From Flavobacteriales bacterium (GTDB lineage: Bacteria; Bacteroidota; Bacteroidia; Flavobacteriales_E; Vicingaceae), in contig JABTUP010000002.1 in the NCBI GenBank assembly GCA_015075325.1, forward strand, positions 124,001-188,000: a stretch of 64,000 nucleotides of DNA. Reading direction: 5' to 3'. Of this stretch, positions 9,386 through 39,352 are shown piece after piece. A program made the translations under genes and the position numbers. The notes under the pieces were generated by a model, which worked only from the letters and a program-made list of their open reading frames with translations, was not told the DNA's origin and made no database searches. Numbering within the stretch: position 1 is the stretch's first letter; each line of letters opens with the position of its first letter.

Positions 9386-11164
9386 TTAATGAGCTTCTTC
9401 AGTTTCATTTTCAAAAAGTGGAGTTGTTTGAGGGATAAAATCTTTACCACCAATGTATTCTCCATTTTTATCCACTTTACTATAATCATAAGGCCATCTG
9501 TGAACTTCAGGGATATCGCCATACCAGTTTCCATGTATGTGTTCAACTGGTGTTGTCCACTCTAAAGAGTTACTTTCCCATGGATTTTGAGGTGCTTTTG
9601 GCCCTCTTAAAGCACTATAAACAAAATTGTATAAAAACAATAATTGACCAAACGCAATTGCTATTGCAAACATACTAATCAACACATTAATATCCATCAA
9701 GTTGTCGAATAATGGAAACTCAGAATTGGTATAATATCTTCTTGGAACACCAGCTAAACCTAAGAAATGCATTGGAAAAAATACACCATAAGCACAAACT
9801 ATAGTAACCCAAAAATGAATACTTCCCAATCTATTATTCATCATTCTACCAAACAATTTTGGAAACCAATGATAAACACCAGCAAACATTCCAAATATTG
9901 CAGATAATCCCATTACAATATGAAAATGTCCTACCACAAAATAAGTGTCATGAACATTAATATCTAATGCTGAATCACCCAAAATTAATCCTGTTAAACC
10001 ACCCGAAATAAAAGTTGATACTAAACCTATACTAAACAACGTTGCTGGTGAAAACTTGATATTTCCTTTCCATAATGTTGTTAGGTAGTTAAATACTTTT
10101 ACTGCTGAAGGAATTGCAATTAAAAGAGTTGTAAAGGTAAATACAGCTCCTAAAAATGGATTCATACCGGTAACAAACATGTGGTGACCCCAAACAATTG
10201 TAGATAAAAATGCAATTGCCAACATTGATCCAATCATTGCTCTGTAACCAAAAATTGGTTTTCTCGACATGGTTGAAATAATTTCAGAAGTAATACCTAA
10301 AGCTGGTAATAATACAATATAAACTTCTGGATGGCCTAAAAACCAAAACAAATGCTCAAATAAAATAGGGCTTCCGCCAGTATGCTCTAACACTTGTCCT
10401 CCAATATAGATGTCAGATAAGTAAAAACTTGTACCAAAACTTCTATCAAATATTAACAATAAAGCTGCTGATAGCAATACAGGGAAAGATACAACACCTA
10501 TGATAGCTGTAAGAAAGAATGCCCAAATAGTTAATGGCATTCTCGTCATGCTCATACCTTTAGTTCTTAAATTTAATATAGTAACAATATAGTTTAAGCT
10601 ACCTAATAATGATGAAACAATAAAAATTGCCATTGAAATTAACCAAAGAGTCATCCCTAAACCTGAACCTGGTATTGCTTGAGGCAAAGCACTTAATGGT
10701 GGATAAATTGTCCAACCAGCAGAAGCCGCCCCACCTTCAACGCCTAATGAAATTAGCATAATTACACTCGACAAAAAGAAAAACCAGTAAGATAGCATAT
10801 TTAAAAATCCTGAAGCCATATCTCTAGCTCCAATTTGAAGTGGAATTAGTAAATTACTAAAAGTACCGCTTAACCCTGCTGTTAATAAGAAAAACACCAT
10901 AATTGTTCCATGCATAGTAACTAAAGCAAGATACTTATCAGGAGCCATTACTCCATTTTCAGCCCATGAGCCAAGTAATTTGTCAATTATCCAAAAACTT
11001 TCGCCTGGCCAACCCAATTGAAGTCTAAAAAGAGTTGACATAATCATGCCTATAAAACCCATAATAAAACCAGTTATCAAAAATTGTTTTGATATCATTT
11101 TATGGTCAGTACTAAAAACGTACTTAAATAAAAAATCTTGGTCGTGGTGATGGTGTGTACTCAT
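9386..11164 (-). CDS. Cytochrome c oxidase subunit I (aa3 type)
   Basis: A 592-residue catalytic subunit with 12 helices. The heme and copper ligands and the proton-path motifs are all present: MHGTIMVFF, the GHPEVYIVLLPALG motif (CuB histidine, cross-linked tyrosine, and the glutamate of A1-type oxidases), WGHHMFVTG and HDTYFVVGHFHIVMG. It reduces oxygen to water and pumps protons. The very N-terminus is MSTHHHHDQD, a run of four histidines before the first helix. No frameshift or truncation. Confidence 0.97.
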   Translation of the reverse strand: MSTHHHHDQDFLFKYVFSTDHKMISKQFLITGFIMGFIGMIMSTLFRLQLGWPGESFWIIDKLLGSWAENGVMAPDKYLALVTMHGTIMVFFLLTAGLSGTFSNLLIPLQIGARDMASGFLNMLSYWFFFLSSVIMLISLGVEGGAASAGWTIYPPLSALPQAIPGSGLGMTLWLISMAIFIVSSLLGSLNYIVTILNLRTKGMSMTRMPLTIWAFFLTAIIGVVSFPVLLSAALLLIFDRSFGTSFYLSDIYIGGQVLEHTGGSPILFEHLFWFLGHPEVYIVLLPALGITSEIISTMSRKPIFGYRAMIGSMLAIAFLSTIVWGHHMFVTGMNPFLGAVFTFTTLLIAIPSAVKVFNYLTTLWKGNIKFSPATLFSIGLVSTFISGGLTGLILGDSALDINVHDTYFVVGHFHIVMGLSAIFGMFAGVYHWFPKLFGRMMNNRLGSIHFWVTIVCAYGVFFPMHFLGLAGVPRRYYTNSEFPLFDNLMDINVLISMFAIAIAFGQLLFLYNFVYSALRGPKAPQNPWESNSLEWTTPVEHIHGNWYGDIPEVHRWPYDYSKVDKNGEYIGGKDFIPQTTPLFENETEEAH

Positions 11165-11192: not shown

Positions 11193-12173
11193 TTAAATGT
11201 TTTCTTTAAAAGTCTTTTGTGAAGCGAGCCATTTTTCGTAATCTTCTTTACTTTCCACAACTATATTCATTTGCATGTTGTAGTGAGCAGCTCCACAAAT
11301 TTTATTACATAAAAGGATGTATTCGAAATTTTCATTATTTGTAATTTTTTTCATCTCTTTTGTTGTAATTGTTGGAACAAAATTAAACTGTGTTTTCATA
11401 CCTGGAACACAGTTCATTTGTGCTCTAAAATGTGGCATGTATGCACTATGGATAATATCATTTGAGCGGAAAACAAATTGCACTGGAACATTAACAGGTA
11501 TATGAAACTCTCCTTTTACAACAACATCATCATCAGCATTTTTATCAGATGCATCAATTCCCATAAAATTTGTTCCTTCAATATAGTTAACATGTGCACG
11601 TCCTAATTTTCCATCTTTACCAGCATATCTAGCACCCCAAGAAAACTGTTGACCAACAACTTCTAATAACACATGTTCTTCTTCAGGGTTTACTGGCGTC
11701 ATTATTTTGTTCCAATTATTTAACCCATAAAGTATTAAAACTGTTAATGCTAAAGAAGGAACCAAAGTCCATATTAATTCTAGTTTATTGCTATGAGAAA
11801 AATACTCCGCTTTGTTATTTTTTTTGTAAGCATATTTATAAGCAAACCAAAACAACAGAATATGAGTTATGATAAATACAGGTATAATTAACAACCAAGT
11901 AATATTCATTAATTTATCTATTCCCACACCATGCTCTGAAGCAGATACTGGCAACATCAAATCTCCCCATTTATAATATTGCCAAGCGAAAAAACCAAAG
12001 TAAAACAACAGAAAAACCATCATCAATGTTCCTTGAAGTTTATTTTCTTTATCAGAAATTTCATAAACATTACTGCCTTTAGAAATGGCATTTAATTCTG
12101 CAATTTTCAAGATTTGAGCAACTGAAATCGCTATCAATAAAACAGTTACACCGACTAAGATTACCATCATCAT
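11193..12173 (-). CDS. Cytochrome c oxidase subunit II
   Basis: A 326-residue subunit with three N-terminal helices, one of them before the usual hairpin, and a periplasmic cupredoxin domain. The CuA site is intact: CNKICGAAH followed by NMQM. No CxxCH motif is present, so it is not a caa3 subunit with fused cytochrome c; electrons must come from a separate carrier or directly from ACIII, whose genes are upstream. First oxidase gene after the regulator, with its own candidate promoter. Confidence 0.95.
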   Translation of the reverse strand: MMMVILVGVTVLLIAISVAQILKIAELNAISKGSNVYEISDKENKLQGTLMMVFLLFYFGFFAWQYYKWGDLMLPVSASEHGVGIDKLMNITWLLIIPVFIITHILLFWFAYKYAYKKNNKAEYFSHSNKLELIWTLVPSLALTVLILYGLNNWNKIMTPVNPEEEHVLLEVVGQQFSWGARYAGKDGKLGRAHVNYIEGTNFMGIDASDKNADDDVVVKGEFHIPVNVPVQFVFRSNDIIHSAYMPHFRAQMNCVPGMKTQFNFVPTITTKEMKKITNNENFEYILLCNKICGAAHYNMQMNIVVESKEDYEKWLASQKTFKENI

Positions 12174-12297: not shown

Positions 12298-12993
12298 TTA
12301 TTCAACTATTTGTTTAAGAGATTGTAAATTTAGTATTTGAATTTTTCGCAACTTCGTTTTTACTATTTTTTGTTTATTAAAAGCTGATAAAATTCGTATT
12401 ACATTAGCTGTATTCATACTTGATAAAGATGCCAATTCTTTTCTTTTTAGTTCTACGGCAATAGTCTTTCCATCAATGTCGTATCCGTAAAAATTAATTA
12501 ATTCTATAAGCGTATAAGCTAATCTCGACTCCATTTTTGTTTGTGTTAAAACCAACATACGTTCATTTTGGTCGATAAGCTTTTGTGAAAGATAGTTAAT
12601 AATTTTCTTACCTAAATCTACATTCTTTTCAATTACGGAAAACAAGTTTTCTTTTTTAATTATACAAATTGAAACATCTTCAATTGCAACTGCTGTATAG
12701 GTGTAAGGTGAGTTCGACATTAAATTATCAAAACCTAAAAAGTCGACGGGTTTATGAAGTGAAACAATAAATTCATCTTCAATTTTACCTTTTTTAATCA
12801 TTTTTACTTTACCGTGATTAAGACAATACAAACCTATGGGCATAGCTCCTTCAAGAAAGATACTATCTCCTTTTTTAAAAAAGAGTTTATTCCTCTCCAT
12901 ATTTAAGGACTCTAATTCTTTTTCTGTAAGATCTGAAAATAACGAATAATTTACTTTTAAGCATCCCACACAATTTCCTAAACAATGTTCCAT
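12298..12993 (-). CDS. Crp/Fnr-family transcriptional regulator
   Basis: A 231-residue regulator with an N-terminal cyclic-nucleotide-binding-like beta-roll (about 25-140) and a C-terminal winged HTH (about 165-215; KRKELASLSSMNTANVIRIL). The N-terminus holds three cysteines in MEHCLGNCVGCLK, and another lies in SICIIKKEN; Fe-S sensing as in Fnr is possible but the spacing is not the E. coli pattern. I start it at 12993 rather than the upstream in-frame ATG at 13017, because that ATG lies inside the terminator of the preceding operon. It sits between ACIII and oxidase genes, so it may tune respiration. Confidence 0.88.
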   Translation of the reverse strand: MEHCLGNCVGCLKVNYSLFSDLTEKELESLNMERNKLFFKKGDSIFLEGAMPIGLYCLNHGKVKMIKKGKIEDEFIVSLHKPVDFLGFDNLMSNSPYTYTAVAIEDVSICIIKKENLFSVIEKNVDLGKKIINYLSQKLIDQNERMLVLTQTKMESRLAYTLIELINFYGYDIDGKTIAVELKRKELASLSSMNTANVIRILSAFNKQKIVKTKLRKIQILNLQSLKQIVE

Positions 12994-13005
12994 ATTTTTA
13001 AAATT

Positions 13006-13032
13006 AAAAAAGCCCATAAAAATTTATGGGCT
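13006..13032 (-). terminator. Terminator after the ACIII operon
   Basis: AGCCCATAAA (13011-13020) pairs with TTTATGGGCT (13023-13032), a perfect inverted repeat followed on the minus strand by a T run (13006-13010). It ends act transcription and also covers the alternative upstream ATG of the regulator. Confidence 0.8.
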
Positions 13033-13055: not shown

Positions 13056-14264
13056 TTAAGTATGAAGATGTTTACTTTCATCTAACATTGGATGATTTTT
13101 TGGCATTAAAGGTGCTTTTGAAAGCGATTTTAAAGTAAATAAGATAAATAATCCTAAGAACACTAAAAACATACCAATTTCAATAGCTCCTAAACCACCA
13201 TGATTGTGCATTGTTCCTGGTAATACCATTACTAAAACATCAATCCAATGGCAGAAAAATAATATAATTGCTACAGGTAATAAGAATACCACATTTTTTT
13301 TGGCATCTCTTGACATCAATACAAAGAAAGGCAATAAGAAATTTACTAAGAATGTGCCGATATACAGCATTTTATAGTCATTGAATCTTTCAATGTAATA
13401 GGTAACTTCTTCAGGAATATTTGAATACCAAATTAACATAAATTGAGAGAACCAAAGGTATGCCCAAAGCATACTAATAGCAAACATCCATTTACCTAAG
13501 TCGTGAATGTGACTATCGTTTACTTCTTTTAATAATCCTAACGATTTTAAGTATAAAACTAATATTAAAACTACTATTATTGAAGAAACCCACATTCCAG
13601 AAAATGCATACCAACCATACATTGTACTAAACCAATGAACATCAATTGACATTAACCAATCCCAAGAAGATGATGAAGATGTGTATGCAAAAAATGCAAT
13701 AAATAATATCCCCATAAAGATGCTTTTTTGGTAAATTGGAGTTGACTCTCCTTTATTTACGGATAGTTTATCTTCTTCTAATGATTTTTTTCTAAACCAA
13801 TTTGCAAAATACATCCAAACTAAAAAATAAGCTATTGTTCTTCCCCAAAAAAATGCTTGATTTAAATACCCAGATTTTCCAGCAATAATTGCATCATAAT
13901 GTTCACTTGAAGGATCAGTAACTCCTTCTGCCATCCAATGGTAAATATGGTTCCAATGCATTGTTCCTCCAATAAACACTAATAATAACGCAACTGCAGA
14001 AACAGGCATAAAGCTCATTGTTGCTTGAAATACACGTTGAGTAGTAACTCCCCAAGCCATTTCAGAAACATATTGTAATGCTATAAAAAACAATGAAGCT
14101 AAAGATATGGTGAAAAAGAAATAACCATTAACTAACAAGTTAGCCCAAAGTCTTTGGCTTGTATGTTCATGACTCGTAAGTAGACCAATAATAAATGAAG
14201 CTAATCCAATTACAATTAACAATATGGTTGTTATATTAGCTTTTTTAGATACTTGATATTCCAT
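13056..14264 (-). CDS. actF: ACIII subunit ActF (quinol:cytochrome c oxidoreductase membrane subunit)
   Basis: A 402-residue integral membrane protein with about 10 helices, related to the NrfD/PsrC family and to ActC. Features include HTSQRLWANLLVNGYFF, EMAWGVTTQRVFQATMSF, GGTMHWNHIYHWMAEG and WLMSIDVHWFSTMYGWYAFSG. ActC and ActF together form the membrane core of alternative complex III, one of them binding menaquinol. It is the last act gene; a terminator follows 24 bases later. Confidence 0.92.
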   Translation of the reverse strand: MEYQVSKKANITTILLIVIGLASFIIGLLTSHEHTSQRLWANLLVNGYFFFTISLASLFFIALQYVSEMAWGVTTQRVFQATMSFMPVSAVALLLVFIGGTMHWNHIYHWMAEGVTDPSSEHYDAIIAGKSGYLNQAFFWGRTIAYFLVWMYFANWFRKKSLEEDKLSVNKGESTPIYQKSIFMGILFIAFFAYTSSSSSWDWLMSIDVHWFSTMYGWYAFSGMWVSSIIVVLILVLYLKSLGLLKEVNDSHIHDLGKWMFAISMLWAYLWFSQFMLIWYSNIPEEVTYYIERFNDYKMLYIGTFLVNFLLPFFVLMSRDAKKNVVFLLPVAIILFFCHWIDVLVMVLPGTMHNHGGLGAIEIGMFLVFLGLFILFTLKSLSKAPLMPKNHPMLDESKHLHT

Positions 14265-14288: not shown

Positions 14289-14939
14289 TTATTTTTGAGT
14301 AGCTACTATTTCTTGAGAAGTAGTATCTTGAACCGTTGGTGTTTGACTTTCATTCATGAACTTGGTTCTAATGTATTGAATAATCTTCCATCTTTCCTCT
14401 TTATTTAACTGAGAAGCATGTGAACCCATTAGACCTTTTCCATAAGTAATTGAGTGAAACATTTTTCCTTCTGAAATAGCTAATCCTGGATTAAACTTAA
14501 CTGGTAGCGGAGGAAATTTTTCTCTCTCTACTAAAATACCATCTCCTTGTCCAGTTGCTCCATGACACTGAACACAAAACATACCATATAAAGCTTCGCC
14601 TTCTTTTACAATACTTTCAGAGTAAGCGATAGGATTTTTTAAACTTATTCCAGCTTTTTCATATCCCTCAGCATTGTTTTCGTAAGCATAAGGTGTAAAA
14701 CCTCTTGGAATAGTTCCATTAACAGGAACCCTAGCTGTCATAACATCTTTCATTTCAGGATGTTGTTTATCTCTAACTTCACCATAATCAACATACGGTT
14801 CAATTGAAGGTGAACGATACATGTCTGGCATATATTCTGGAGCCAATCCATTTTTTTCCTTACATGAGAATAAAGTTGCAACAACAACCGTTAGGCTAAG
14901 TTTCGCAAAAATATTTATATACTTATTTTTCATAAACAA
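14289..14939 (-). CDS. actE: ACIII subunit ActE, mono-heme cytochrome c lipoprotein
   Basis: A 216-residue protein with a lipobox (ATLFSC, cleavage before the Cys) and one class I heme site, CVQCH (about residue 124), with a later methionine (GLMGSH) as a likely second axial ligand. ActE is the mono-heme subunit of ACIII that faces the periplasm and passes electrons on. The true start could be the second Met at 14933. It follows actD with a 10-base gap. Confidence 0.92.
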   Translation of the reverse strand: MFMKNKYINIFAKLSLTVVVATLFSCKEKNGLAPEYMPDMYRSPSIEPYVDYGEVRDKQHPEMKDVMTARVPVNGTIPRGFTPYAYENNAEGYEKAGISLKNPIAYSESIVKEGEALYGMFCVQCHGATGQGDGILVEREKFPPLPVKFNPGLAISEGKMFHSITYGKGLMGSHASQLNKEERWKIIQYIRTKFMNESQTPTVQDTTSQEIVATQK

Positions 14940-14949: not shown

Positions 14950-15480
14950 TTATGAATGTTTTACATCAATTTCTAAAACACAAGTTTCATTAATTAATGA
15001 TTTTATTTCTTCTTCACTTGCTTCATTGTCGTGGGTATGAATTTCCATAACAAATCTATCATCTGTTGTTCTTGGGTAAGGATTTCGTGCTTTAAATCCA
15101 GGTAATGTCCAATTTCTCAACAAATAAGTAATTGACATACCGTGAGCTGCACATAAAACACCAAATTCAAAAGTAACAGGTATAAATGATGGCAAGTTAT
15201 CTATTATTGTAAAGTTTGGTTTACCACCAATATTTAGTGGCCAATCTTGAATCATAAAATACCACATACCAAACAATGCTAATGCAACACCAATCATTCC
15301 ATAAATAAATGCTGTTATTGCAATTCTAGTTCTTTTTAAACCTATCACAGGATCAATTCCATGAATAGGAAATGGAGAAAACACGTCTCTGATGTAAATT
15401 CCTTTTGCAACAAGATGTTTTGCACTTTCTAAAAGTACATAATCATCATCATAAATTGCGTATATTTTTTTGTCTGACAT
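14950..15480 (-). CDS. actD: ACIII subunit ActD (DUF3341)
   Basis: A 176-residue protein of the DUF3341 family. It starts with a soluble domain (YAIYDDDYVLLESAKHLV ... IRDVFSPFPIHGID), then two membrane helices with PSFIPVTFEFGVLCAAHGM between or within the second. In ACIII, ActD is a small peripheral-plus-membrane subunit. Spaced 42 bases after actC and 10 bases before actE. Confidence 0.92.
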   Translation of the reverse strand: MSDKKIYAIYDDDYVLLESAKHLVAKGIYIRDVFSPFPIHGIDPVIGLKRTRIAITAFIYGMIGVALALFGMWYFMIQDWPLNIGGKPNFTIIDNLPSFIPVTFEFGVLCAAHGMSITYLLRNWTLPGFKARNPYPRTTDDRFVMEIHTHDNEASEEEIKSLINETCVLEIDVKHS

Positions 15481-15522: not shown

Positions 15523-16932
15523 TTATTTTTTTACTGGATGTAATTTTTTGAATTCTTCATCCGACATATTTTTATATTTTTCACCAGAAGATTTAAGTAT
15601 GGTTTTCACTTCATTAAATGCTAAAACTGGGAAATATTTTAAGAATAATAGATAAAATACTGAGAAAATACCAATTGTACCAATATATACACCTAAGTCA
15701 ACCCATGTTGGATAAAACATTGACCAACTTGATGGTAAATAATCTCTATGAACTGAAGTAACAATAATAACAAATCGTTCGAACCACATACCAATGTTAA
15801 CGATAATTGACATAAAGAATGTGAACCCTAAGTTAGTTCTGAGTTTCTTAAACCAAAATAAATGAGGAGAAACAACATTACAAGTCATCATAGTCCAATA
15901 TGCCCAAGCGTAAGGCCCTGAAAAACGATTAATAAATGCATAAGATTCGTATTCAACTCCTGAATAATATGAAATAAACAACTCTGTTAAGTAGGCAACA
16001 CCAACGATTGATCCTGTAACGATAATTACAATATTCATGTATTCAATATGTTTAACTGTAACATAGTGTTCCAATCTCATTGCTTTACGAACAATCAACA
16101 TTAATGTTTGTACCATCGCAAATCCAGAGAAAACAGCTCCAGCAACAAAGTATGGAGGGAAAATAGTTGTATGCCAACCAGGAATTACAGAGGTTGCAAA
16201 GTCCATTGATACAATAGAGTGAACCGAGAATACTAAAGGTGTTGCTAATCCAGCTAATACTAAAGATACTTCTTCAAAACGTTGCCAAGCTTTAGCATTG
16301 CCTGACCATCCAAAACTCAACAATGAATACATCAATTTTGGTACAGGTTTCTTTGCTCTATCTCTTATGGTAGCAAAATCTGGTATTAAACCGATGTACC
16401 AAAACACTAAAGATACAGACATATAGGTACTAATTGCAAAAACGTCCCATAATAAAGGTGAGTTAAAGTTAACCCATAATGAACCAAATTCATTAGGTAA
16501 TGGAAGAACCCAATAAGCCATCCAAATTCTACCCATGTGAATCATTGGAAAGGTTCCTGCCATAAATACTGCAAATATTGTCATTGCCTCAGCTGGTCGG
16601 TTAATAGCCATTCTCCATTTTTGTCTAAATAATAACAATACTGCAGAGATAAGTGTTCCTGCGTGACCAATACCAACCCACCAAACAAAGTTGGTGATGT
16701 CCCATGCCCAACCAACTGTATTATTTAAACCCCAAGTTCCAATACCTGTTCCTAAAAGGTATAAAATAGATCCTACTCCCCATAATGCTATAATGGTGGC
16801 TATAGTCATTAAAATTTTCCACATTTTGGTTGGAGCATTTTCAATAGGATGTAATACGTCATTAGTAATTTTACTATAAGTAACGTCGTGTCCTAAAATT
16901 AATGGTTCTCTAATTGCTGCTTCTTTATGCAT
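15523..16932 (-). CDS. actC: ACIII subunit ActC (NrfD/PsrC-like quinol-binding)
   Basis: A 469-residue polytopic protein of the NrfD/PsrC family with about 10 helices. Recognisable stretches include NFVWWVGIGHAGTLISAVLLL, WRMAINRPAEAMTIFAV, PMIHMGRIWMAYW and SVHSIVSMDFATSVIPGWH. It is thought to bind the quinol in the membrane next to the Fe-S chain of ActB. Lies 26 bases downstream of actB. Confidence 0.95.
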   Translation of the reverse strand: MHKEAAIREPLILGHDVTYSKITNDVLHPIENAPTKMWKILMTIATIIALWGVGSILYLLGTGIGTWGLNNTVGWAWDITNFVWWVGIGHAGTLISAVLLLFRQKWRMAINRPAEAMTIFAVFMAGTFPMIHMGRIWMAYWVLPLPNEFGSLWVNFNSPLLWDVFAISTYMSVSLVFWYIGLIPDFATIRDRAKKPVPKLMYSLLSFGWSGNAKAWQRFEEVSLVLAGLATPLVFSVHSIVSMDFATSVIPGWHTTIFPPYFVAGAVFSGFAMVQTLMLIVRKAMRLEHYVTVKHIEYMNIVIIVTGSIVGVAYLTELFISYYSGVEYESYAFINRFSGPYAWAYWTMMTCNVVSPHLFWFKKLRTNLGFTFFMSIIVNIGMWFERFVIIVTSVHRDYLPSSWSMFYPTWVDLGVYIGTIGIFSVFYLLFLKYFPVLAFNEVKTILKSSGEKYKNMSDEEFKKLHPVKK

Positions 16933-16958: not shown

Positions 16959-19900
16959 TTAAGCTTCGCTATTTTTTATATTTCTAACTTTTGTTTGATA
17001 GTAGATGTTTGGTTGTTGACCAACTTCCTCTATTACTCTGTATGATCTGTTATGATCTTTTTCTGCTGCAACTTTACTTGATGTATCATTTAAATCTCCA
17101 AAAGTAATAGCATTTGTAGGACAAGCCGTAGAGCAAGCTGTTTGTATTGAACCGTCTTCTACTTTAGTTCCTGCTTTTTTAGCATCTAACTTACCTGCTT
17201 GAATTCTTTGAACACATAAACTACATTTTTCCATTACCCCTCTAGAGCGAACTACTACATCTGGATTTAACACCATTCGTCCTAAATCATCTTGAGCTGG
17301 GTTGAAATCGGTAAACTTATTATATGCTTTATAGTTATACCAGTTAAATCTTCTCACTTTGTACGCACAGTTATTTGCACAGTATCTAGTTCCAATACAA
17401 CGGTTATATGCCATCATGTTTAAACCTTCGTTACTATGTGTTGTTGCTGCAACAGGACAAACTGTTTCGCAACCAGCGTGATTACAGTGCTGGCACATCA
17501 TTGGTTGGTGAACAACATGAGGATTATCGGCAGCTCTTTCCATTTTAGTGTAAGCAGCTATACCACCTACATTTTCAGCAGCTTTTGTTTTTTCGTGTGT
17601 ATCACCTATTTTTCCAACTTCTTGGTAATCACTAGAATAATACCTGTCAATTCTCATCCAATGCATTATTCTTCCTCTTCTTACTTCATCTTTACCAATA
17701 ACAGCAATGTTATTTTCTGATACACAAGAAGTAACACAAGCACTACAACCAATACAAGTATTTAAGTCAATCGACATTCCCCATCTATGACCAATATTTT
17801 CAACTGGTTGAGCTCCCCACAAATCAATTTCTTTTACATTTTTCTTAATTGCTTCACCGTTTTCATGAACAAGTAATGCGTGAGTTGGGTTGTAATCTTC
17901 TTTATTTCCTTTTTTGTAGATATCAAAAACTGTTTCTCTGATAATAGAATCTCTACCCATTATCGTTTGCTGAGTTTGAGTTGCAGCTAAATGATATTCC
18001 ATAGAAACATCCGCTAAAGTAGCTACACCATAATAATTCAAACCATTATCAGTTAAAGAGACCAATGGATAAGCATTTTTACCAGTAGGCTCAGACATGT
18101 TACCTACTTTTTTACCATAACCAAGAGCAACACCAATTGTCCCTTTTGCTTGGCCTGGCTGAGCAACTACAGGAAGATTTTCAACTGTTTTTCCATTAAC
18201 AGTTACGCTAACAACATTTGCTAACTCTTCTTGACCTAAATTAATATTATAACCTCTATCAAGCATTTCTGCAGGATTCATGGTTACATAGTTATCCCAA
18301 GTAACTTTAGTTAGTGGGTCTGGCATTTCTTGCAACCAAGGATTATCCGCTCCAGCTCCATCTCCAACACCCATGTTTTGGGTTAATTCTATTTCTAAAT
18401 CACCACCTTTTATTGCTTTTACTGAAGAATATGCTGCAGCTAAATCTGCATTAAATGCTAAAGTTTCAGAAGAAGTAATAGAAATTTCAACTACACCATC
18501 GTGTAATGCTTTATTCCAAAAGTCAGTAAAGAATAATTGAGAGGTTTGTTTAGTAAAAATGTTTGCTTCCCAATATGCTTTAATATAATCGTAATAAGAT
18601 GTTTTGTTTCCTTTCCAAATCAAGAAACTTTCTTGTGCCTGACGAGTGTCAAACAATTTAGAAATAGTTGGTTGAGCTAGAGAAAAATGTCCTTCAACAG
18701 GATTTGCATCATTCCATGATTCTAATGCATGATTATCAGGACAAACATATTTACAAGCAGCAGCAGTATCGTTTAATTTTGTAGCAAATGAAACGGTTGT
18801 TTTAACTTTAGCTAAAGCAGCTTTAAAATCATCTCCTAAAGTAGAAACTGGATCAACACCATAGATGAACAATGCATCTACCAGTCCTTCGTTCATTTCT
18901 TTTATTAAATTCAATAATTCTGCATCATTTCCTGCTTTGGTATTTGAATGACGAACTAAATCTATTGTTTTACCGTAGTTTCCAAGTAAATTGTTGATGC
19001 CATTAACTAAAACTTGTACATTTTTATCGTTAGAACCACAAATTACTATTGATTCGCCGGCAGTTGCTTTTAAATCTTTAACAACAGCATCAACGTATGT
19101 ATCATATTTTGTTGCTGCAGCAGAAATACCACCACCTAATTTATTTAAAATTTGAGCAACAACAGCTCCATATTCAGATGGTTTAACTGGAACTCTAACA
19201 TCTGCATTTGTTCCAGACAATGACATGTTTGCTTCAAACTGATAATGTTTAGACATCCAATCATTATCTGGTTTTCTTGTTTGAGCATAATCGTTAACAT
19301 ACATTAAAGTATCCAACCAGTTACCCATAAAGTCAGCACCAATACTTACAATTGTTTTTGCTTTCTTAAAATCATATGTAGGTACAGCAGCTTTACCAAA
19401 TGTATCTTTGTTTGCATTAATAATTCCTGAATAAGAAATTGGGTTGTATTGAATCCAATTTGTTGAAGTTTCAGTTTTAGCAAAGTCAGCTAAAATTATT
19501 TTTGATGAAGGACTAATTATGCTATTCGATAAAATTCTTACATTTTTAGCAGTAGCTAATTCATTTTGAATAGCAGTATCAACAGTTTTCCAATCAGCAT
19601 CTTTTCCATTCACCAACGGATTTTTTAATCTATTGTTGTCATACAACGATAACACTGAAGAGTTTACTCTAGCATTAACAGCACCTTTTGTTAAAGTAGA
19701 TAAATTATTTCCACTAATAAATATTGGACGACCTTCTCTAGTTTTAACTAAAATTGGAGCATAATCATTACCATCAAAATAAGTTGATGCGTAATAGTTT
19801 GCAACACCTGGGTTTACTTCTTCTGGTTTATTTAAGTAAGGAATAGCTTTAGTTACAGGCGTTTCACAAGCTGCTAAAGAAGCTGCTGCAACACCAAAAC

Positions 19901-20075
19901 CTAAGAATTTAAGGAAATCTCTTCTTGAAGTAGATGAACTTTCTAATGTTTCTTTATCTCCTAGAAATTCATTTACAGGTAAATGTTCAGGAAATTCATT
20001 TTTTGTAGATTCTAAAAATTTAGCATCTTCATTTAATTGCTCTAATCCTTTCCAGTATTTTTTTGTATTAGCCAT
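16959..20075 (-). CDS. actB: ACIII subunit ActB (molybdopterin-like and Fe-S domains)
   Basis: A 1,038-residue fusion. The N-terminus has a twin-arginine signal (SSTSRRDFLKFLGFG) ending in LAAC, which suggests a Tat-exported lipoprotein. Residues about 100-720 resemble a molybdopterin oxidoreductase domain, which in this family has lost its cofactor. The C-terminal third holds the Fe-S ligands: CIGCSACVTSCVSEN, CQHCNHAGCETVC, CIGTRYCANNC and CSLCVQRI with CSTACP. These clusters connect quinol oxidation to the hemes of ActA and ActE. No frameshift. Confidence 0.95.
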   Translation of the reverse strand: MANTKKYWKGLEQLNEDAKFLESTKNEFPEHLPVNEFLGDKETLESSSTSRRDFLKFLGFGVAAASLAACETPVTKAIPYLNKPEEVNPGVANYYASTYFDGNDYAPILVKTREGRPIFISGNNLSTLTKGAVNARVNSSVLSLYDNNRLKNPLVNGKDADWKTVDTAIQNELATAKNVRILSNSIISPSSKIILADFAKTETSTNWIQYNPISYSGIINANKDTFGKAAVPTYDFKKAKTIVSIGADFMGNWLDTLMYVNDYAQTRKPDNDWMSKHYQFEANMSLSGTNADVRVPVKPSEYGAVVAQILNKLGGGISAAATKYDTYVDAVVKDLKATAGESIVICGSNDKNVQVLVNGINNLLGNYGKTIDLVRHSNTKAGNDAELLNLIKEMNEGLVDALFIYGVDPVSTLGDDFKAALAKVKTTVSFATKLNDTAAACKYVCPDNHALESWNDANPVEGHFSLAQPTISKLFDTRQAQESFLIWKGNKTSYYDYIKAYWEANIFTKQTSQLFFTDFWNKALHDGVVEISITSSETLAFNADLAAAYSSVKAIKGGDLEIELTQNMGVGDGAGADNPWLQEMPDPLTKVTWDNYVTMNPAEMLDRGYNINLGQEELANVVSVTVNGKTVENLPVVAQPGQAKGTIGVALGYGKKVGNMSEPTGKNAYPLVSLTDNGLNYYGVATLADVSMEYHLAATQTQQTIMGRDSIIRETVFDIYKKGNKEDYNPTHALLVHENGEAIKKNVKEIDLWGAQPVENIGHRWGMSIDLNTCIGCSACVTSCVSENNIAVIGKDEVRRGRIMHWMRIDRYYSSDYQEVGKIGDTHEKTKAAENVGGIAAYTKMERAADNPHVVHQPMMCQHCNHAGCETVCPVAATTHSNEGLNMMAYNRCIGTRYCANNCAYKVRRFNWYNYKAYNKFTDFNPAQDDLGRMVLNPDVVVRSRGVMEKCSLCVQRIQAGKLDAKKAGTKVEDGSIQTACSTACPTNAITFGDLNDTSSKVAAEKDHNRSYRVIEEVGQQPNIYYQTKVRNIKNSEA

Positions 20076-20102: not shown

Positions 20103-21722
20103 TTAATAATGACATTTAGCACATTCCCAACCACCCATTTCTTCAACAGTTAGTTTTCCATCGCCTAACCATTTTTCTTTGTATTGTTCAGTCATTCTTG
20201 CGTGCATTTCATCGTAATATCCATTACCTTCCGACATTACGCCAGTTGTATTATGACATTCAATACACCATTTCATAGTTAATGGAGAGAATTGTTCTAC
20301 AACATCCATTTCTTCAACTGGTCCATGACAAGTTTGACATTTTTGACCACCAACAGTTACGTGTTGAGAGTGGTTAAAATAAGCGTGATCTGGTAGATTG
20401 TGAACTTTAATCCATTTTACAGGGGTTGGGTTATTTCCATAAGCTTGAGATTCTGGGTTATAATCTAAAGCTGCATATATTTTCTTAATTTCATCAGTCA
20501 TTGAATACTCTTCACCGTTATAGGTAAATGTTTTTCCATTAGATCCATCAACATATTTATGACAATTCATACAAACGTTCAACGAAGGAATTCCTGATGT
20601 TTTACTATGACGAGCACTTGAGTGACAATAGTTACAGTCAATTTTATTATCTCCAGCATGAACTTTATGAGAGAATTTAATTGGTTGTTCTGGTTTGTAG
20701 CCAGTGTGAACCCCAATTGTATTTGCATTGTTCATTAACTTAACCAATCCAGCAAAAAATAAAACAATTACAACCAAAGCAACTAAACCACTATTTTTAC
20801 TAATTGTTTGTTTACACGCTTCAGCAAATGTAACTGGACCAGAATATTCAACACCTTGTTTTTCAGCAGCAGCTTTTGCAATTGTAACTCTTGCTTTATT
20901 AAGGAAAAGAATTAATCCTGCAAGTATTACAATTATTACAACTAATATTATAATAGTTGATTTTGAATCAGATTTTGTTTCTCCTGCATCGGCAACTTCA
21001 GTTGAAGCTTCCTCTTTTTTAGCCGATGGCGGGTTTTTAATATAAGCTAAGATTGCTTTTATTTCATCATCGGTAACATTTTGTGGTGGCATTGGAACTT
21101 TATTGAACTCCTCAAAAATTGCTTTTGCATCGGCATCTCCACTAGCGATAAGTTCTGGTGAATTTTTAATCCATTTTACTAACCATTCAAAACTTCTTTT
21201 TTCATTTATTCCTTTTAAACCAGGACCAACCAATTTATTATCGCCAACACTATGACAAGCAGCACAATTCGCTTTATAAAGCTTTTCACCAAGCAACACT
21301 TCTTCGCTTACGCCCTCTGATGCTGCAGCAGCTTCTTTTGGTGCTGCAGTTTCTGCATTTGGATTTGCTAAATAATCAAAAATTTCATTTAATTGCTCAT
21401 CAGACAATGCTTGAGCAGGCATAGGAATTTTACTGTATTCCTCAAAAATGGCAATCGCATCTTTATCTCCAGAAGCAATAAGTTCTCCTGAGTTTTTTGT
21501 CCATTTAATTAACCATTCTCTATTTCTTTTGTCATTAATACCTTCCAAACCTGGTCCAACCAGTTTGTTTTTACCAACACTATGACATGCCGCACAATTG
21601 GTTTTAAATAAATCTTTACCTCCTTGAGCATATAAAGATGTTTGTGCAAATAATGATATAACAACCAAAATTGATAGTTTGTATCCTATTGCTTTTTTTA
21701 CTTTATTTATTATCTTATTCAT
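20103..21722 (-). CDS. actA: ACIII subunit ActA with two extra cytochrome c domains
   Basis: A 539-residue multiheme cytochrome. After a signal peptide (to SLYAQ) come two near-identical cytochrome c domains of about 110 residues, each with CAACHSVG and a methionine in KIPMP or KVPMP. Two membrane helices follow (STIIILVVIIVILAGLILFL and VALVVIVLFFAGLV). The C-terminal part has the five CxxCH sites expected of ActA: CNYCH, CMNCH, CQTCH, CIECH and CAKCH. Seven heme sites in total. The structurally known Flavobacterium johnsoniae ActA is described as pentaheme, so the tandem N-terminal domains are an addition. First gene of the act operon. Confidence 0.95.
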   Translation of the reverse strand: MNKIINKVKKAIGYKLSILVVISLFAQTSLYAQGGKDLFKTNCAACHSVGKNKLVGPGLEGINDKRNREWLIKWTKNSGELIASGDKDAIAIFEEYSKIPMPAQALSDEQLNEIFDYLANPNAETAAPKEAAAASEGVSEEVLLGEKLYKANCAACHSVGDNKLVGPGLKGINEKRSFEWLVKWIKNSPELIASGDADAKAIFEEFNKVPMPPQNVTDDEIKAILAYIKNPPSAKKEEASTEVADAGETKSDSKSTIIILVVIIVILAGLILFLNKARVTIAKAAAEKQGVEYSGPVTFAEACKQTISKNSGLVALVVIVLFFAGLVKLMNNANTIGVHTGYKPEQPIKFSHKVHAGDNKIDCNYCHSSARHSKTSGIPSLNVCMNCHKYVDGSNGKTFTYNGEEYSMTDEIKKIYAALDYNPESQAYGNNPTPVKWIKVHNLPDHAYFNHSQHVTVGGQKCQTCHGPVEEMDVVEQFSPLTMKWCIECHNTTGVMSEGNGYYDEMHARMTEQYKEKWLGDGKLTVEEMGGWECAKCHY

Positions 21723-28720: not shown

Positions 28721-29506
28721 CTAGAACTTTTTTTGTAAATAATACTTGACAATGTTTTTTAAATTACAAATGCAACAACATTCAGCACCATTAACATTAC
28801 TAAATAATTTCTATAATATTGGATTATCATAATCTTTTTATTATATCTGTAATTAAATGAAGTCATTTATACGGAGTTGATGCCAAAAATACTAATAAAA
28901 GATTTCCAAGATTATTATAATCACCACCCATGATTCTATATTCCATTTGGTAAGGATTTGAATTATCAATAACTTTCTAATTTGAAGGAAAATCAAAATT
29001 TCCTGGTATGTCCTGTAACAAATTAAAATTTTACCCAATGAGTAGTTGAAGATAGTAATTTTGCTATTTTTTACTCCACCGTAAAGTTTTTTTATCATAA
29101 TTATAACCATTTACATATAAATAATTTTGAAGAATTGTCCAATCGTAAACTTGCTATATGCCAAGGGTAGGACAAAGTTCTGATTTGTGTTTGAACAATT
29201 TCGCCAATTATATAATCTTTGCAATGTTTCTTTTTGAAGATGTAAATTGTCATAATTACAATATTCCTGTTGATCTTTGAATTAGCATTCATGTACTATT
29301 ATCAAGTTAACATTCAGATTGTTAACTGGCTATATTTCATGGTTTTTAAATTTTCTTTCAGATCCAAAAAATTTATATTGTACCTATTGTTAATGGCTGT
29401 AAACAATTTCCATCAGCATCACAATGGTTTCTATCACTTTTTATCAGCTGATTGAAATAGTATTTGCGGATAAAACTAATAAAATAATTGTAAGTAATTT
29501 TTCCAT
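28721..29506 (-). pseudogene. FISUMP-domain secreted protein, broken by frameshifts
   Basis: Joining frames gives a signal peptide (MEKLLTIILLVLSANTISIS, start 29506) and then the order of a Fibrobacter-succinogenes-major-paralogue domain: DADGNC...PLTIGT, EYCNYDNLHL-like, RLYNW, NLCPTLG, DWTILQNYLYVNGYNYD, KIAKLLSSTTHW, then PNGIRNHGW / RIMGGDYNNLG and a Cys-containing end. Every 20-40 residues the frame changes, so no intact product can be read. The end position is an estimate from the last matching frame. Function unknown; this domain is common in secreted Bacteroidota proteins. Confidence 0.55.
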
Positions 29507-29646
29507 ATTTTTTATTGAAATGGTTAATTTATTATTTAGTTTTTCATATTCAAATATAAAAAATAAAACAATATATCATAATTAATTATGACAATTTTTA
29601 TAATTTGTAAAAGAACTTTTGTGTCATATAAATTTATGACGTTCAG

Positions 29647-29871
29647 GTGCTAACAAAAAAGGAGCTTTCAGAAAAAATTGGCTTGAGAATTAAGCAACTA
29701 CGAGTTGCCAAAGGAATTTCTCAAGCAGAATTAGGAAGGCTTTGCATGAAAGATAGACAGCATATAGAGTTGATTGAAAATAATAAAGTGTCTGCTAATA
29801 TTTATACCCTTTATATTCTATCTATTGCATTAAATGTGGATATAAAAGAATTATTTGCTTTTGACGAATAA
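29647..29871 (+). CDS. XRE-family HTH regulator
   Basis: A 74-residue protein with one helix-turn-helix domain of the Cro/C1 type (IGLRIKQLRVAKGISQAELGR ... IELIENNKVSANIYTLYILSIAL). It starts at a GTG (29647); no in-frame ATG precedes it. It is one of the few intact frames in this block. It is convergent with the toxin-antitoxin remnant, and could be an islet regulator. It lies only 34 bases from the toxin gene end. Confidence 0.8.
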   Translation: MLTKKELSEKIGLRIKQLRVAKGISQAELGRLCMKDRQHIELIENNKVSANIYTLYILSIALNVDIKELFAFDE

Positions 29872-29904
29872 TTCATTTATACTGAATCGATTTACAAAAC
29901 AAGT

Positions 29905-30224
29905 TTACAACAATTCTTTTAACAGTTCTTTTAAAACCCTTTGTCAACCAGCGAATCTTTATCAGATTTATCGTAAATAGTAAGTAAATAAACCGTATCG
30001 TGATTAATAATAAAATTAGTAATTAGTCTTGCTCCACCACTTTTCCCTTTACCTTTTGAAGCAATCGCTAAACGTATTTTATAACAATCTTTACCTAATG
30101 GATTACCTTGTTGTGGTTTTGTTTTGAGCGAGTTTACTAGTTATTACTAAATTCTACTTTTAGTGAAGGATACTTTTTACAAGTTTTTAATTAGAATTTG
30201 CAAACTTTGGAATGTATTTTACAT
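29905..30224 (-). pseudogene. RelE/ParE-type toxin gene, frameshifted
   Basis: Two frames join into a RelE-like toxin: an N-terminal piece (VKYIPKFANSN, KKYPSLKVEFSNN) and a C-terminal piece containing PQQGNPLGKDCYKIRLAIAS, GKSGGARLITNFII, and VYLLTIYDKSDKDSL, ending in LKELLKELL. The central motif is typical of mRNA-cleaving RelE-family toxins of Bacteroidota. At least two frame breaks (near 30200 and 30130) prevent translation as printed. The start overlaps the antitoxin stop. Confidence 0.75.
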
Positions 30225-30420
30225 TATAATTCATTGATTAAATCATCAGCACTTTTGGCATCAAGTTTTCCTTCTTTAACTAATTCTAATTCATTCAAAG
30301 CTGCATCTTTTATTTCATTAATAAAATTGGCTTTTGAGCTCGATATAGGAGTTACTTGTTTAATAAAGTAAAGTTTTTAAGCATCTCTAAAAAATGCAAC
30401 ATTTATTGTCTTTTATGTCT
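30224..30420 (-). pseudogene. Antitoxin partner of the RelE-type toxin, frameshifted
   Basis: Upstream of the toxin a frame reads FIKQVTPISSSKANFINEIK, then DAALNELELVKEGKLDAKSA-DDLINEL with stop at 30224-30226, overlapping the toxin start. Its N-terminal end (NVAFFRDA-like, about 30400) is out of frame. Order antitoxin then toxin and the overlap fit a type II module. The start is not defined. Confidence 0.6.
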
Positions 30421-30491
30421 AGGATAATTTTCATGAGTAAAACGAATGGTTTATGAAACAAAGTTATTAAAAATAATAATAATGTTTTTTG

Positions 30492-30630
30492 CTGGCTGGC
30501 AATTCCATTCTTCAAGAACAAATTAAAGTTGGAAAAACCATTCAAGAAATTAAAGAAACTTGGCAAGAAGGTTTAGAACTTTAAACCTATCGAAAAATTA
30601 CCTGTTGTACGAGGATTTTGAGTGAAATAA
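30492..30630 (+). repeat. Right, partial copy of the NamZ 3' end
   Basis: Matches 28111-28190 almost exactly to about 30571, then continues as a diverged copy of the stop region (GAGGATTTTGAGTGAAA at about 30610) and runs straight into the terminator that fits a NamZ gene. No upstream part of the gene is present. Confidence 0.85.
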
Positions 30631-30642
30631 TCCTTTAAAAAA

Positions 30643-30673
30643 AATCCTCGCTAAAATTTTAGTGAGGATTTTT
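30643..30673. terminator. Bidirectional terminator before acn
   Basis: AATCCTCGCTAAAATTTTAGTGAGGATT (one G-T pair) spans 30643-30670 with A and T runs on both sides. It sits between the partial NamZ end and the converging aconitase. Confidence 0.9.
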
Positions 30674-30684
30674 TTGTTTTAAAT

Positions 30685-32956
30685 TTATTGATTTTGTAGC
30701 TTAATTAAATTAAGTGCCGAACCAACTTTTAAACCATTTCAATTTGTTGGTCGTTATAGGTATGATTAAATTTAATAGTTTCTTTCGTTCCATCAGCATG
30801 AGCTAACTCTAAAGTAAGTTGTTTGCCTGGAGCAAAACTTTCTAAATCAATAAAATTAAGCGTATCGTCTTCTTTAATTTTATCATAATCAGCCTCATTG
30901 CAAAATGTTAACCCTAACATACCTTGTTTTTTAAGGTTAGTTTCGTGAATACGAGCAAACGATTTTACTATTACAGCACAAACGCCTAAATGACGTGGCT
31001 CCATAGCGGCATGTTCTCTAAGAACCCTCACCATAGTTATGATCTCCCACAACAACCGAAGGAATTCCTGCTGCTTTATATGCTCTTGCTGTAGCTGGAA
31101 CTTCTCCTTTTGCACCTGTTAACTGATTTACCACACTATTGGTTGCTCCACCAAAAGCATTTACAGCACCAATTAACATGTTATTAGAAATGTTATCCAA
31201 ATGTCCTCTGTATTTTAACCAAGGATTCGCCATAGAAATATGGTCGGTTGTACATTTTCCTTTTGCTTTAATCAACAATTTAGCTCCCATAATATTTTTT
31301 ACCATTCAAGCTGGGAATGAATCTAATAATTGAAGTCTGTCTGATGTTGGGCTAACAATTACTTCTACTTTACTTCCATCTTCTGCAGGAGCTTGATAGC
31401 CATTATCCTCAACAGCAAAACCTTTTGTTGGTAATTCATCACCTTTTGGCTCAGCTAATTTAACTTGCTCTCCTCTTTCATTTGTAATGGTATCGGTAAT
31501 CGGATTAAAATCTAAACGACCAGTTATTGCTATTGCAGCTACCATTTCTGGAGAAGCAACAAAAGCATGTGTGTTTGGTTTCCATTCAGCACGTTTAGCA
31601 AAGTTTCTGTTAAAAGAGTGAACGATAGAGTTTTTCATCTGTTTATCAGCACCTTCTGCATCCCATTGTCCGATACATATCAAGCATTGGTAAATATTTT
31701 AGCTGATTCAAATTTATTGAACGTAGCAATCAAACCATCTCTTTCGGCATGTATCTTACTTGCTCCGAACCTGGGTTAATTCCTAAAATAGCTTTTGGTT
31801 TTACCCCTTTGCTTACAGCGTCTTCTACAATTGAAGCTGCTCTACTTAAATCTTCGTAAGATGAGTTGGTACAAGAACCAATCAAAAAAATCAATATCTA
31901 ATGGTAAACCATTTGCTGTAGCTTTTGCTTTCATTTCAGCAACAGGAGTAGCTAAATCTGGTGTAAAAGATGAAATTTAAATCGGAGTTTTAAAGTTATT
32001 TTAGTATTAATTTTCAATTACTTGGATCATAAAAACTTTTCAGGATTTGCAAAAACCTCAGCATCACCTGTTAAATGTTCAGCAACTTGGTCAGCTAATG
32101 CAACAACATCTTCTAAAGAATGTTGCTTTTTAGGTATCTTCTCATCATTCATCATAACCAAAAGTTGAAGTTGTTTATTGCAATTTCAGCTCCATGTTAC
32201 AAATGGTTCCTTTAGAAATACACGATAGTGATGTATTCCTTCGCCAAATATTCAATTTGATAGCACCAGTACCACCTTCAACAGTTAAAATACCTGCTAC
32301 TTTTAAAATAACATCTTTGTTAAATGTCCAACCATTTAGTTTTCCAGTTAATTTAAAAATTTATTAATTAAAAGGAAATTTAACTCCTAAGCCATACCAG
32401 CCATTACATCAACAGCATCGGCACCACCAGTTGTACCAACTGCAACCATTTGCTAAAACCAGCATTTACAAAAATTGCGAATCAAACAATCATCATCCCA
32501 CCAGGAAAAGCATAGTTTTCTAATACTACTTGATGTTTTAATTTAGCTCTGGTTTCCATTTCCAATACCATATTTATTACAGATAGAACTTAAGAAATTA
32601 AAAACTTCATTGTTTTGTTAATACCATCTTGTAAATCTTTATCGGCTCCTAATTTTGCCTGAATTATGGATGGTCGGCATGTGCTGTAGAAGGTACTGCA
32701 ACTTTCTTCTTTCCTGCTTGCATAAACTGAAGTAATGCCATTTTAAGCAGTTGCATCTTGCATAACAACTCTATCAGTGGCAAAATCGACATACGACTTT
32801 CCTCTTTCATACGCAGTTGTTTTCTCCTTCCCACAAGTGAGTATAAATTATTTTTTCTGATAAAGTAAGCGGACGACCAACTACTTTACGTGCTGCTGCA
32901 ACTCTATCTAGGAAATATTGCATAAACATTTTAATCATTTCAATGTCAAATGCCAT
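30685..32956 (-). pseudogene. acn: Aconitate hydratase, split by many frameshifts
   Basis: Aconitase of the TCA cycle. Pieces in order on the minus strand: [44 protein letters not shown], then CIGQWDAEGADKQ, NSIVHSFNRNFAKRA (near 31640), [85 protein letters not shown] and [19 protein letters not shown], ending GSALNLIKLQNQ. At least ten frame changes, mostly single bases, break a gene of about 755 codons. The active-site Cys/Fe-S region CIGQ is partly readable. Best read as sequencing error; see findings. Confidence 0.85.
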
Positions 32957-33099
32957 AACTTAATTTTTTTTTATTATTTATTAAATGAAAACAACTGAAA
33001 TAAAAAGCAATTGCTTTTTATTAAAAAAAGTGGGATAAATACTTTGCCAACGCCCTCTTTTTAATCCGAATGGATAATCCAACAACCTGTTTTGTGGTG

Positions 33100-33128
33100 C
33101 AAATTTAAGTATTTTTAATATTTTGCAA
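33100..33128 (-). promoter_or_regulatory. Promoter of acn
   Basis: On the minus strand TTG (33126-33128), an 18-base spacer and TAAATTTG (33100-33107), an exact match to the Bacteroidota consensus. It lies 144 bases before the acn ATG. Confidence 0.75.
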
Positions 33129-33241
33129 TAAATAAAAGAAAACTTTTTAATGTTTACATTTATACGTGATTATTGGTTTTTCAATTAAAATTCGATGAAC
33201 ACGGAGTCTCACGAATACAAACAAATAAAATATAATTATAA

Positions 33242-34190
33242 ATGAGTAAAAAATCACTTTTATATTTTTTTCTATTTCTTTCGATAAATTCAGTTTGGTC
33301 AAACCTATTATCTTTTTCCCGATAGTGTGGGAGTTTGGAAACAAACATCATCATTTATGAAGGAAGTGACATCCATTATGCTCTTTTTATGAACGGAACA
33401 CTATAATCAACAGTATTATTATTTGTATAATAAGTTATATTTATTCAGACACTCCCAATAATATAGATACTGTTAATTCAAATTACTACGGAGCGATTCG
33501 AGAAAATAATAAAAAAAATCTTTTTTTAGATAGTATCTATAATATTTATTATCCAGAATACTTTTTTGTTTTACTTCTTATATTTATCCCTATCCTAGTT
33601 TTACTGAAGAAATTTTATTATATGATTTTAATGTAAATGTTGGTGATATTGAACATTAAAATCATTTGGATAGAACATATATAATCATAACATGATAGAT
33701 AGTTTGTATTCAAAAAGAATATAGAAAACAATACAATTTATTCATATTCTTATAAGCCGATGTCTTCTTGCCAACCAATTGGAAAAGCAATTTTAAATTA
33801 TGTTGAAAACCACTTTGGTGATTTAACATGGGCTTATTTAGTATTTTTATATGGTAAAAACTGAAAATTCTGAATCGCTCAATTGTTTTGAAGATGATGA
33901 AGTATTTTATTCTAATGTTTCAAATTGTATGATTGTTGGAAATGAGGAAAACAAAACAAAAGAATCATTTAAAATCTAAAAATCCAAATCCTACCTCAGA
34001 AGTTTTATTCATTGAATTAGACAACCAGTATAAAAATCTTATTTATATTTTAGATATTACTGGCAAAGAAGTTTACTCAACCAAAACGATACAAAAAACA
34101 ACATCAATTGATGTTTCTTCTTTTAAAATCGGATTATAAATAGTAAAAATTGGATTTCAATCAAGGCAATATCACATCAAAACTGATTAG
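33242..34190 (+). pseudogene. T9SS type A cargo protein, frameshifted
   Basis: The gene opens with MSKKSLLYFFLFLSINSVWS, a signal peptide, and pieces such as DSVGVWKQTSSF, VKTENSESLNCFEDDEVFYS and SNVSNCMIVGNEENKTKES follow in changing frames. The last 75 residues are a type A sorting domain: NPNPTSEVLFIELDN, IYILDITGKEVYSTKTI, IDVSSFKIGLYIVKIG, ending KTD near 34190. The domain holds the protein at the cell surface or releases it. No catalytic domain can be named. Confidence 0.65.
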
Positions 34191-34267
34191 TATAAATTAG
34201 TTCCTTTTTTCTATTTCTGTACAACACATCTTTTTTATTACTTTTACCGCTCTAAAAATAAATTACC

Positions 34268-36027
34268 ATGTACAGATCGCATACCAACGGAGAATTAAGA
34301 ATTAAAGCAACGTAAATCAAGTTATTACCCTATGTGGATGGGTTCAGAAACCCGCGAAATGGGAGCCTGACCTTTGTCGATTTACGCGACCGTTACGGTA
34401 TTACCCAATTGGTTTTGGCGAAGAGCATACTAAAACTGCTAAAACACTAAGGACGATAAGATGTTATTCAAATTACTGGAAAAGTAATTGAGCGTGAAAG
34501 CAAAAACAAAAATATCCCAAATAGGAGAAATTGAAATAAGCGTTACTCAACTTACTGTTTTAAATAAAAGTAAAACACCTCCTTTTACCATCGAAGATAA
34601 TTCGGATGGTGGAGAAGAGTTGCGTATGCAATACCGTTATTTAGATTTGAGAAGAACTCCGTTGAGAAAAAAATTAGAACTTCGTCATCGTTTATCTATA
34701 GAATTTTGCTAGCGATTAGACTGTTAAATTTCTTGAATTGAAACACCTTATGTGATTAAATCAACGCCAGAAGGTGCATCGTGATTTTGTTGTTCCAAGT
34801 AGAATGAACCCTGGTCAAAAATATGCTTTGCCACAATCGCCACAAACCTTTAAAGATGATTATTGATTTGAGCGGTTACGACCGTTATTATCAAATAGTT
34901 TCGTTGCTTTAGAGATGAAGATTTACGTGCCGACCGTCAGCCAGAGTTTAAACACAAATTGACTGCGAAATGGCTTTTGTAGAACAAGAAGACATTTTAA
35001 TGACTTTGAGGCTCTAATGGTTCACTTATTCCAGGTTAATAAAGGAATTGAATTTGATTCATTTCCACGGATGAGCTATGCTGATGCGATGTTAAACTAT
35101 GGTTGCGACAAACCTGACATTCGTTTTGGAATATTACTTTCAATTACCTAACTGATTTAGTAAAAGGAAAAGGTTTTGCCATTTTTGATGACGCCGAAAC
35201 AGTAATTGCTATAAATGCTGAAAACTGTGCTTCGTTTACTAGAAAACAATTGACGAATTAACCGATTACGTTAAACGACCATAAGTTGGCAAAAGGGTTG
35301 ATTTATTTACGTTGTAATGAAGATGGAACATTTAAGTCGTCTGTAGATAAATTTTACAACGAAGAAGACTTGAAAAGATGGGCAACGCAATGTAATGCAA
35401 AAGCTATGATTTAATTTTAGTGCTTTCGGAGAAACCTCAACTACTCAAAACTCAATTGAGTGCATTGCGTTTACATTTAGGAAATCAATTGGGGTTAAGA
35501 AATCCTGATATTTATGCTCCACTTTGGGTGTACGATTTTCCTATGTTTGAAAATTTAAAACCCCTGAAGGAATAATACAGTGGCATTCTATTCATCATCC
35601 TTTTACAAGTCCATCGGAGAAATTTAAAATCTAACTAAAGAAGAAATTTTACAAATTAAAGATTTGAATACATTTACAACTCAAGTTATGATTTAGTTAT
35701 AAATGGAACAGAGATTGGTGGAGGATCTAAAATTCATGATAAGAAGACACAATCAATAATGTTTGAATTACTTGGATTTAGTGAAGAAGAAGCTTTAGAT
35801 ACAATTTGGATTTTTAATGAACGCTTTTGAAAAAAGAGCATGGGGCTCCTCATGGTGGTATAGCACTAGGTTTTGATAGATTGTGTGCATTATTTGGCGG
35901 ACAAGAAACCATTCGTGATTTTATTGCGTTCCCAAAAAACAACAGCGGACGCGATGTAATGATTGATGCTCCTGCAACAATCGACAAAAAACAATTGGAC
36001 GAGTTGAGTTTAAAAGTGACTATATAG
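34268..36027 (+). pseudogene. aspS: Aspartyl-tRNA synthetase, split by frameshifts
   Basis: Class II aspartyl-tRNA synthetase. From MYRSHTNGELRIKA the pieces follow the family in order: [44 protein letters not shown] (one clean stretch of 225 bases), [54 protein letters not shown], then ALRLHLGNQLGLRNPDIYA, and finally [18 protein letters not shown] (motif 3) with [16 protein letters not shown]. About 585 codons are expected, and the span fits. The breaks are single bases, for instance GCAACGT where GCAAACGT would give ANVNQV. An essential enzyme cannot be decayed, so error is likely. Confidence 0.88.
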
Positions 36028-36156
36028 TTAAATCACCCCATTCTACCCTCCCTCAAGGGAGGAAACCACAACGGAGGCAATTCTCCCCTCGAAGATTTGA
36101 GATTAATTACTTAGAAAATCTGCAGTGCAGATTTGGGTTTAATAGGGGTGATTTAA
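36028..36156. repeat. MITE/REP-like element with terminal inverted repeats
   Basis: Begins TTAAATCACCCC (36028-36039) and ends GGGGTGATTTAA (36145-36156), exact inverted repeats around about 105 bases. Inside lie a CCCTCC...GGGAGG hairpin (36046-36063) and AATCTGCA-G-TGCAGATT (36117-36133). No coding frame. It sits directly after the aspS stop. Confidence 0.7.
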
Positions 36157-39332: not shown

Positions 39333-39352
39333 CAGTTCATATTTAACACAAC

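Follow-up and report, generated by a model that had tools for sequence, protein, structure and literature searches.

ActA of the alternative complex III (ACIII) of Flavobacterium johnsoniae has been described with six c hemes, the sixth of which lies in a mobile N-terminal domain that has been proposed to act as a mobile carrier between ActE/ActA and the aa3 oxidase (PMC8552683). Functionally, this domain would take the place of the cytochrome c that caa3 oxidases carry on subunit II, as does the caa3 partner of the Rhodothermus marinus complex (PMC5928083). The exit route of electrons from ACIII toward aa3 is unsettled: the cryo-EM map of the F. johnsoniae complex does not resolve the N-terminal domain of ActA, and ActE is dispensable in that organism (PMC8552683). 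The original prediction for the locus described here took the known ActA to be pentaheme, a count that fits the Rhodothermus and Roseiflexus proteins, whereas that of F. johnsoniae is hexaheme.

An ActA with two tandem cytochrome c domains

The window, a 64,000-nucleotide stretch of a Flavobacteriales genome, contains actA as an exact open reading frame at 20103..21722 on the minus strand, on which all act and cox features given below also lie. The frame starts with ATG and encodes 539 amino acids with seven CxxCH sites, at residues 43, 153, 363, 384, 462, 486, and 534, and its best sequence match in the PDB is F. johnsoniae ActA (6btm_A; E 9e-104, full-length). From the N-terminus, the protein contains a signal peptide-like segment, seen as a hydrophobic stretch (residues 1-33; 21624..21722), a distal cytochrome c domain, D1, located by Pfam, sequence, and AlphaFold2 (residues 35-120, CAACH at 43; 21363..21620), and a membrane-proximal cytochrome c domain, D2, which clusters with the lone domain found in relatives (residues 145-230, CAACH at 153; 21033..21290). 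These are followed by two transmembrane helix cores, placed by sequence and AlphaFold2 (residues 256-274, 20901..20957, and residues 312-330, 20733..20789), and by a pentaheme module assigned from the CxxCH sites and homology to solved ActA (residues 363-539; 20106..20636).

Both D1 and D2 have CAACHSVG as the heme motif, and the two are 62% identical over 99 amino acids (BLASTP, E 3e-45). Pfam detects Cytochrom_C (PF00034) in two stretches of the protein (E 2e-20) and multiheme families in its C-terminal part. When ActA was modelled with AlphaFold2 from a 42-sequence alignment, the cores of both domains reached a pLDDT of ~90-95, with linkers of lower confidence between the confident folds (~121-139 and ~236-252). 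The model also shows a pair of long helices, at 253-289 and 311-335; it contains no hemes, and its pentaheme module is, as expected, poorly folded. Foldseek placed F. johnsoniae ActA as the top PDB match of this model, followed by cytochromes c (2l4d, 3cp5). Each of the two domains has the CxxCH motif, distal Met ligand, and fold of a class I cytochrome c, while the pentaheme core, the actABCDEF operon, and a membrane anchor before the pentaheme module identify the protein as an ACIII ActA.

Two other genomes of the same genus encode ActA with the same architecture from end to end, at 82% and 79% identity. Together with the confident folds of both domains, this places the doubling far beyond chance, and confirms that the window's ActA is an ACIII subunit with two tandem cytochrome c domains. 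In this respect the original prediction of a seven-site ActA with two closely alike N-terminal domains was right. An assembly artefact at actA was considered and ruled out, because the architecture recurs in these other genomes and sequence quality in the window drops only from ~29.4 kb onward, where a low-quality stretch starts.

That stretch (29408-47455) is an indel-rich copy, at 93.8% identity, of contig C28 from the same assembly, and differs from it by 295 indels, 200 of them single-base and 17 of them multiples of three. The aconitase and aspartyl-tRNA synthetase genes are broken in the window's copy and intact in C28. The stretch looks like an unpolished or duplicate piece of assembly, in which broken open reading frames are not readable as biology without the raw reads. 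Within it, a repeat with ~80% identity occurs at 36244-36573 and 37426-37754, and in the clean copy, C28, both units fall in neighbouring genes for similar surface-type proteins.

The operon and its aa3 oxidase

actA is the first gene of an intact actABCDEF operon, which is followed by an FNR-like gene and then by the aa3 oxidase genes. ORF and homology identify actB (16959..20075), and ORF together with comparison of operons identifies actC (15523..16932), actD (14950..15480), and actF (13056..14264). The monoheme actE, with the heme motif CVQCH, was found by CxxCH scan and Pfam (14289..14939). Beyond these lie coxB (11193..12173), which encodes aa3 subunit II, and coxA (9386..11164), which encodes subunit I. 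Subunit II bears a CuA motif and, as had been predicted, lacks cytochrome c; no CxxCH was found in coxB of the window or of 29 further members of the family. Throughout the family operons compared, a heme-bearing actE and a heme-free coxB accompany both the one-domain and the two-domain forms of ActA, and no loss of ActE was seen in the two-domain forms. As regards a physical supercomplex with aa3, a feature of the F. johnsoniae type, the window has its act and cox genes side by side, and the related genus g6 has them on separate contigs.

The gene between actF and coxB (12298-13017) encodes a Crp/Fnr-family regulator. No regulator of this family was found at the corresponding position in the other operons examined, including that of the congener G001.

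Modules related to the ActA N-terminal domains were also seen elsewhere. Two genomes of the same family (G008 and G009; loci L195, L196, and L206) have a stand-alone module of this kind directly upstream of coxB, comprising ~180-195 amino acids with a signal peptide, a cytochrome c domain ~60% identical to D1, and a membrane helix. Unlike the arrangement in the window, the module is a separate small protein of the cox operon, not fused to ActA, and ActA in these genomes has one domain. The position of this related module beside the CuA subunit fits, but does not prove, a role near CuA. In the window's genome, narGHJI-like genes are preceded by a gene for a diheme membrane cytochrome that contains an ActA-like domain (L203:8968-9843 on G000:C4), and relatives encode proteins similar to it.

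Distribution and history of the second domain

The original prediction was staked on whether all close relatives carry the pair as a routine form, and the answer is divided. The window's family (f1) comprises 46 genomes, of which 43 have a readable ActA N-terminus, a few being scored by frame length alone, and 11 of the 43 have the two-domain form. The pair is found in three of the four genomes of the window's genus, g1 (G000, G002, and G003), and in all six of the sister genus g6, but in only two genomes of another, g9 (G020 and G022), where all other readable genomes have one domain. The remaining member of the window's genus, G001, has one domain, and the single domain of congener and sister-genus ActA is equivalent to D2; the single N-terminal domain of 6btm_A also aligns with D2. 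The two-domain form is therefore neither unique to the window nor universal, and is common to three genera of the family.

To place these counts in the class, we sampled 247 genomes, with ~150 matches listed. Outside f1, two-domain ActA was present among the matches listed in G273 (family f58), G102 (f49), and G071 (f27), each of which was read directly. The doubling in f58 is limited to genus g146 (2 genomes), and G071 is the only doubled case among four genomes of its genus. At least two of 200 Flavobacteriaceae-type genomes (G495 and G366) are doubled among the matches listed, and three further genomes have split matches. In genomes of the phylum outside the class, the matches found in the survey cover the pentaheme core; the one exception is weak and confined to the N-terminus. 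The routine form in the class Bacteroidia is one N-terminal domain and six hemes, and the window's ActA has one domain more than this norm, not two as had been claimed when both members of the pair were called extra.

A scan of named organisms, which favours two-domain matches and yields no frequency, showed that the named relatives nearest to the window are Vicingaceae/Flavobacteriales MAGs. It also found that Lutibacter oceani, Lutibacter litoralis, Aureibaculum flavum, and related MAGs have seven CxxCH sites and tandem N-terminal domains, as in the window. Their domains group with Flavobacteriaceae domains and not with those of the window, and the Lutibacter/Aureibaculum pair most likely represents a separate doubling. 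For a heptaheme ActA, the part of the literature covered yielded a single paper, which concerns a Gram-positive thermophile.

On a core tree of 157 proteins, from which the D domains were left out, the one- or two-domain state needs at least 11 changes, 9 of them forced by well-supported branches. A tree of 110 domain rows rejected a single clade of all D1, the arrangement expected if every two-domain ActA had inherited one old pair (AU p 0.0002). On that tree, the D1 domains of f1 form one group (support 86), and the D2 domains of f1 form another with the single domains of their nearest relatives (SH-aLRT 95), from which it follows that the one-domain proteins of f1 have a D2-type domain. A second domain tree put two nar-type domains inside the D1 group and gave p 0.37 for D1 as one clade. 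The D1 domains of f27 and f58 were nearer to their own D2 than to the D1 of any other lineage in 300 of 300 bootstraps, which leave f49 (L126) without assignment, and pairwise AU tests, weak because they draw on only ~91 columns, gave p 0.28 for f1 with f27 and p 0.24 for f1 with f58. Overall, the trees and bootstraps support separate doublings in at least four lineages, the window's among them, over an older pair kept alike by gene conversion, which would still be compatible with the pairwise tests.

For f1 itself, our reading of the sequences is that one doubling preceded the split of g1, g6, and g9 and was followed by repeated loss of D1; in G001, G025, and G028, a longer acidic stretch occupies the position where D1 would sit. 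The duplication in the window is old. It had been called recent, but the trees give an old split, and among 53 codon pairs for the same residue in D1 and D2, 34 are identical against 31.4 expected from codon usage alone. With silent sites saturated and the pair common to three genera, a recent origin does not hold.

Putative role of D1 and comparison with known ACIII

We consider it rather likely that the window's ActA is a two-shuttle form of an otherwise ordinary Bacteroidia ACIII, in which D2 is the tethered carrier that reaches CuA and D1 an accessory carrier further out. Menaquinol electrons would pass by way of ActB and the pentaheme wire, perhaps also ActE, to D2. A flexible linker joins this domain to the membrane helix and would let it swing to the CuA of the heme-free aa3 subunit II, in the way suggested for the F. 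johnsoniae sixth heme. D1, a tandem copy of D2 on a second flexible linker at a greater distance, would serve this route as an optional extra shuttle that lengthens the reach, raises the collision rate, or stores one electron; it would not be an obligatory relay step. We infer both this route and the contribution of D1. That D1 is optional is indicated by relatives that have the same operon, heme-bearing ActE, and heme-free coxB and do without it, and by a cbb3 distribution that does not track D1. Its absence from G001, G025, and most of g9 suggests that the benefit is small, since loss of D1 appears to have been frequent.

The original prediction described the added domains as a built-in wire to aa3. 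The idea of a built-in carrier stands, and has been published for the single domain of F. johnsoniae (PMC8552683, PMC5928083), but the one-domain congener speaks against a wire that is obligatory. A strictly serial path, running from ActE through D2 and D1 to CuA or in the reverse order, with both domains needed to cross a longer gap, would exploit the reach of two domains and two linkers; it is very improbable, because in G001 a single domain suffices alongside the same operon and a heme-free coxB, and a gap bridged by one carrier there would hardly require two in a congener. We also find it quite unlikely that the two domains divide the work, with aa3 left to D2 and D1 acting as a branch point to another acceptor (a nitrate reductase, a peroxidase, or a cbb3 oxidase). 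D1 is the more acidic domain in the family (mean charge -4.9, vs. -1.0 for D2, in f1), which could reflect a different partner, and the nar-linked diheme cytochrome of the same genome carries a related domain. However, the two-domain genomes G003 and G020 are without a cbb3 (FixO) match, many one-domain genomes have one, and no link between FixO and the domain pair was seen across the genomes compared.

A near-neutral repeat, in which a small domain is easily doubled and lost and D1 holds heme while adding little or nothing, would account for doublings in separate lineages, for repeated apparent loss, and for the unchanged actE and coxB. Nevertheless, CxxCH and the axial Met are kept in 30 of 30 D1 (and in 30 of 30 D2), where the Met is an independent observation, the domains having been found by CxxCH. 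Furthermore, for D1 and D2 alike, dN is low between close relatives within f1 although dS is high (D1 dN ~0.02-0.14), and the pair has been retained across three genera, which together make this explanation unlikely.

Beyond the accessory-shuttle reading of the window's protein, Bacteroidia might repeatedly and independently have lengthened the tethered cytochrome of ACIII from one bead to two, the added copy being distal and optional, and the advantage would be that a second shuttle alters electron delivery by branching to a second acceptor or by buffering. This broader proposal is doubtful, but if it were true, genera that contain both one- and two-domain forms would offer natural experiments on how tethered carriers work. 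Variants with zero, one, and two shuttles, some within one genus, and the form split off beside coxB offer comparisons for the mobile-domain model.

For the window, the main gain is a corrected baseline, with one extra shuttle rather than two. Since nearby genera share the pair and at least three other bacterial lineages show the same doubling, the second domain is a modest variation on a known machine. The pentaheme core is common to the window's ActA and those of R. marinus (6f0k_A) and R. castenholzii (6lod_A), which, unlike it, are without an N-terminal cytochrome c domain. The closest counterpart, F. johnsoniae ACIII (6btm_A), shares with the window the ActA subunit, the operon, the pentaheme core, the mobile N-terminal domain, and an aa3 partner with CuA but without cytochrome c on its subunit II; it differs in that its ActA has exactly one N-terminal cytochrome c domain, whereas the window's ActA has two.
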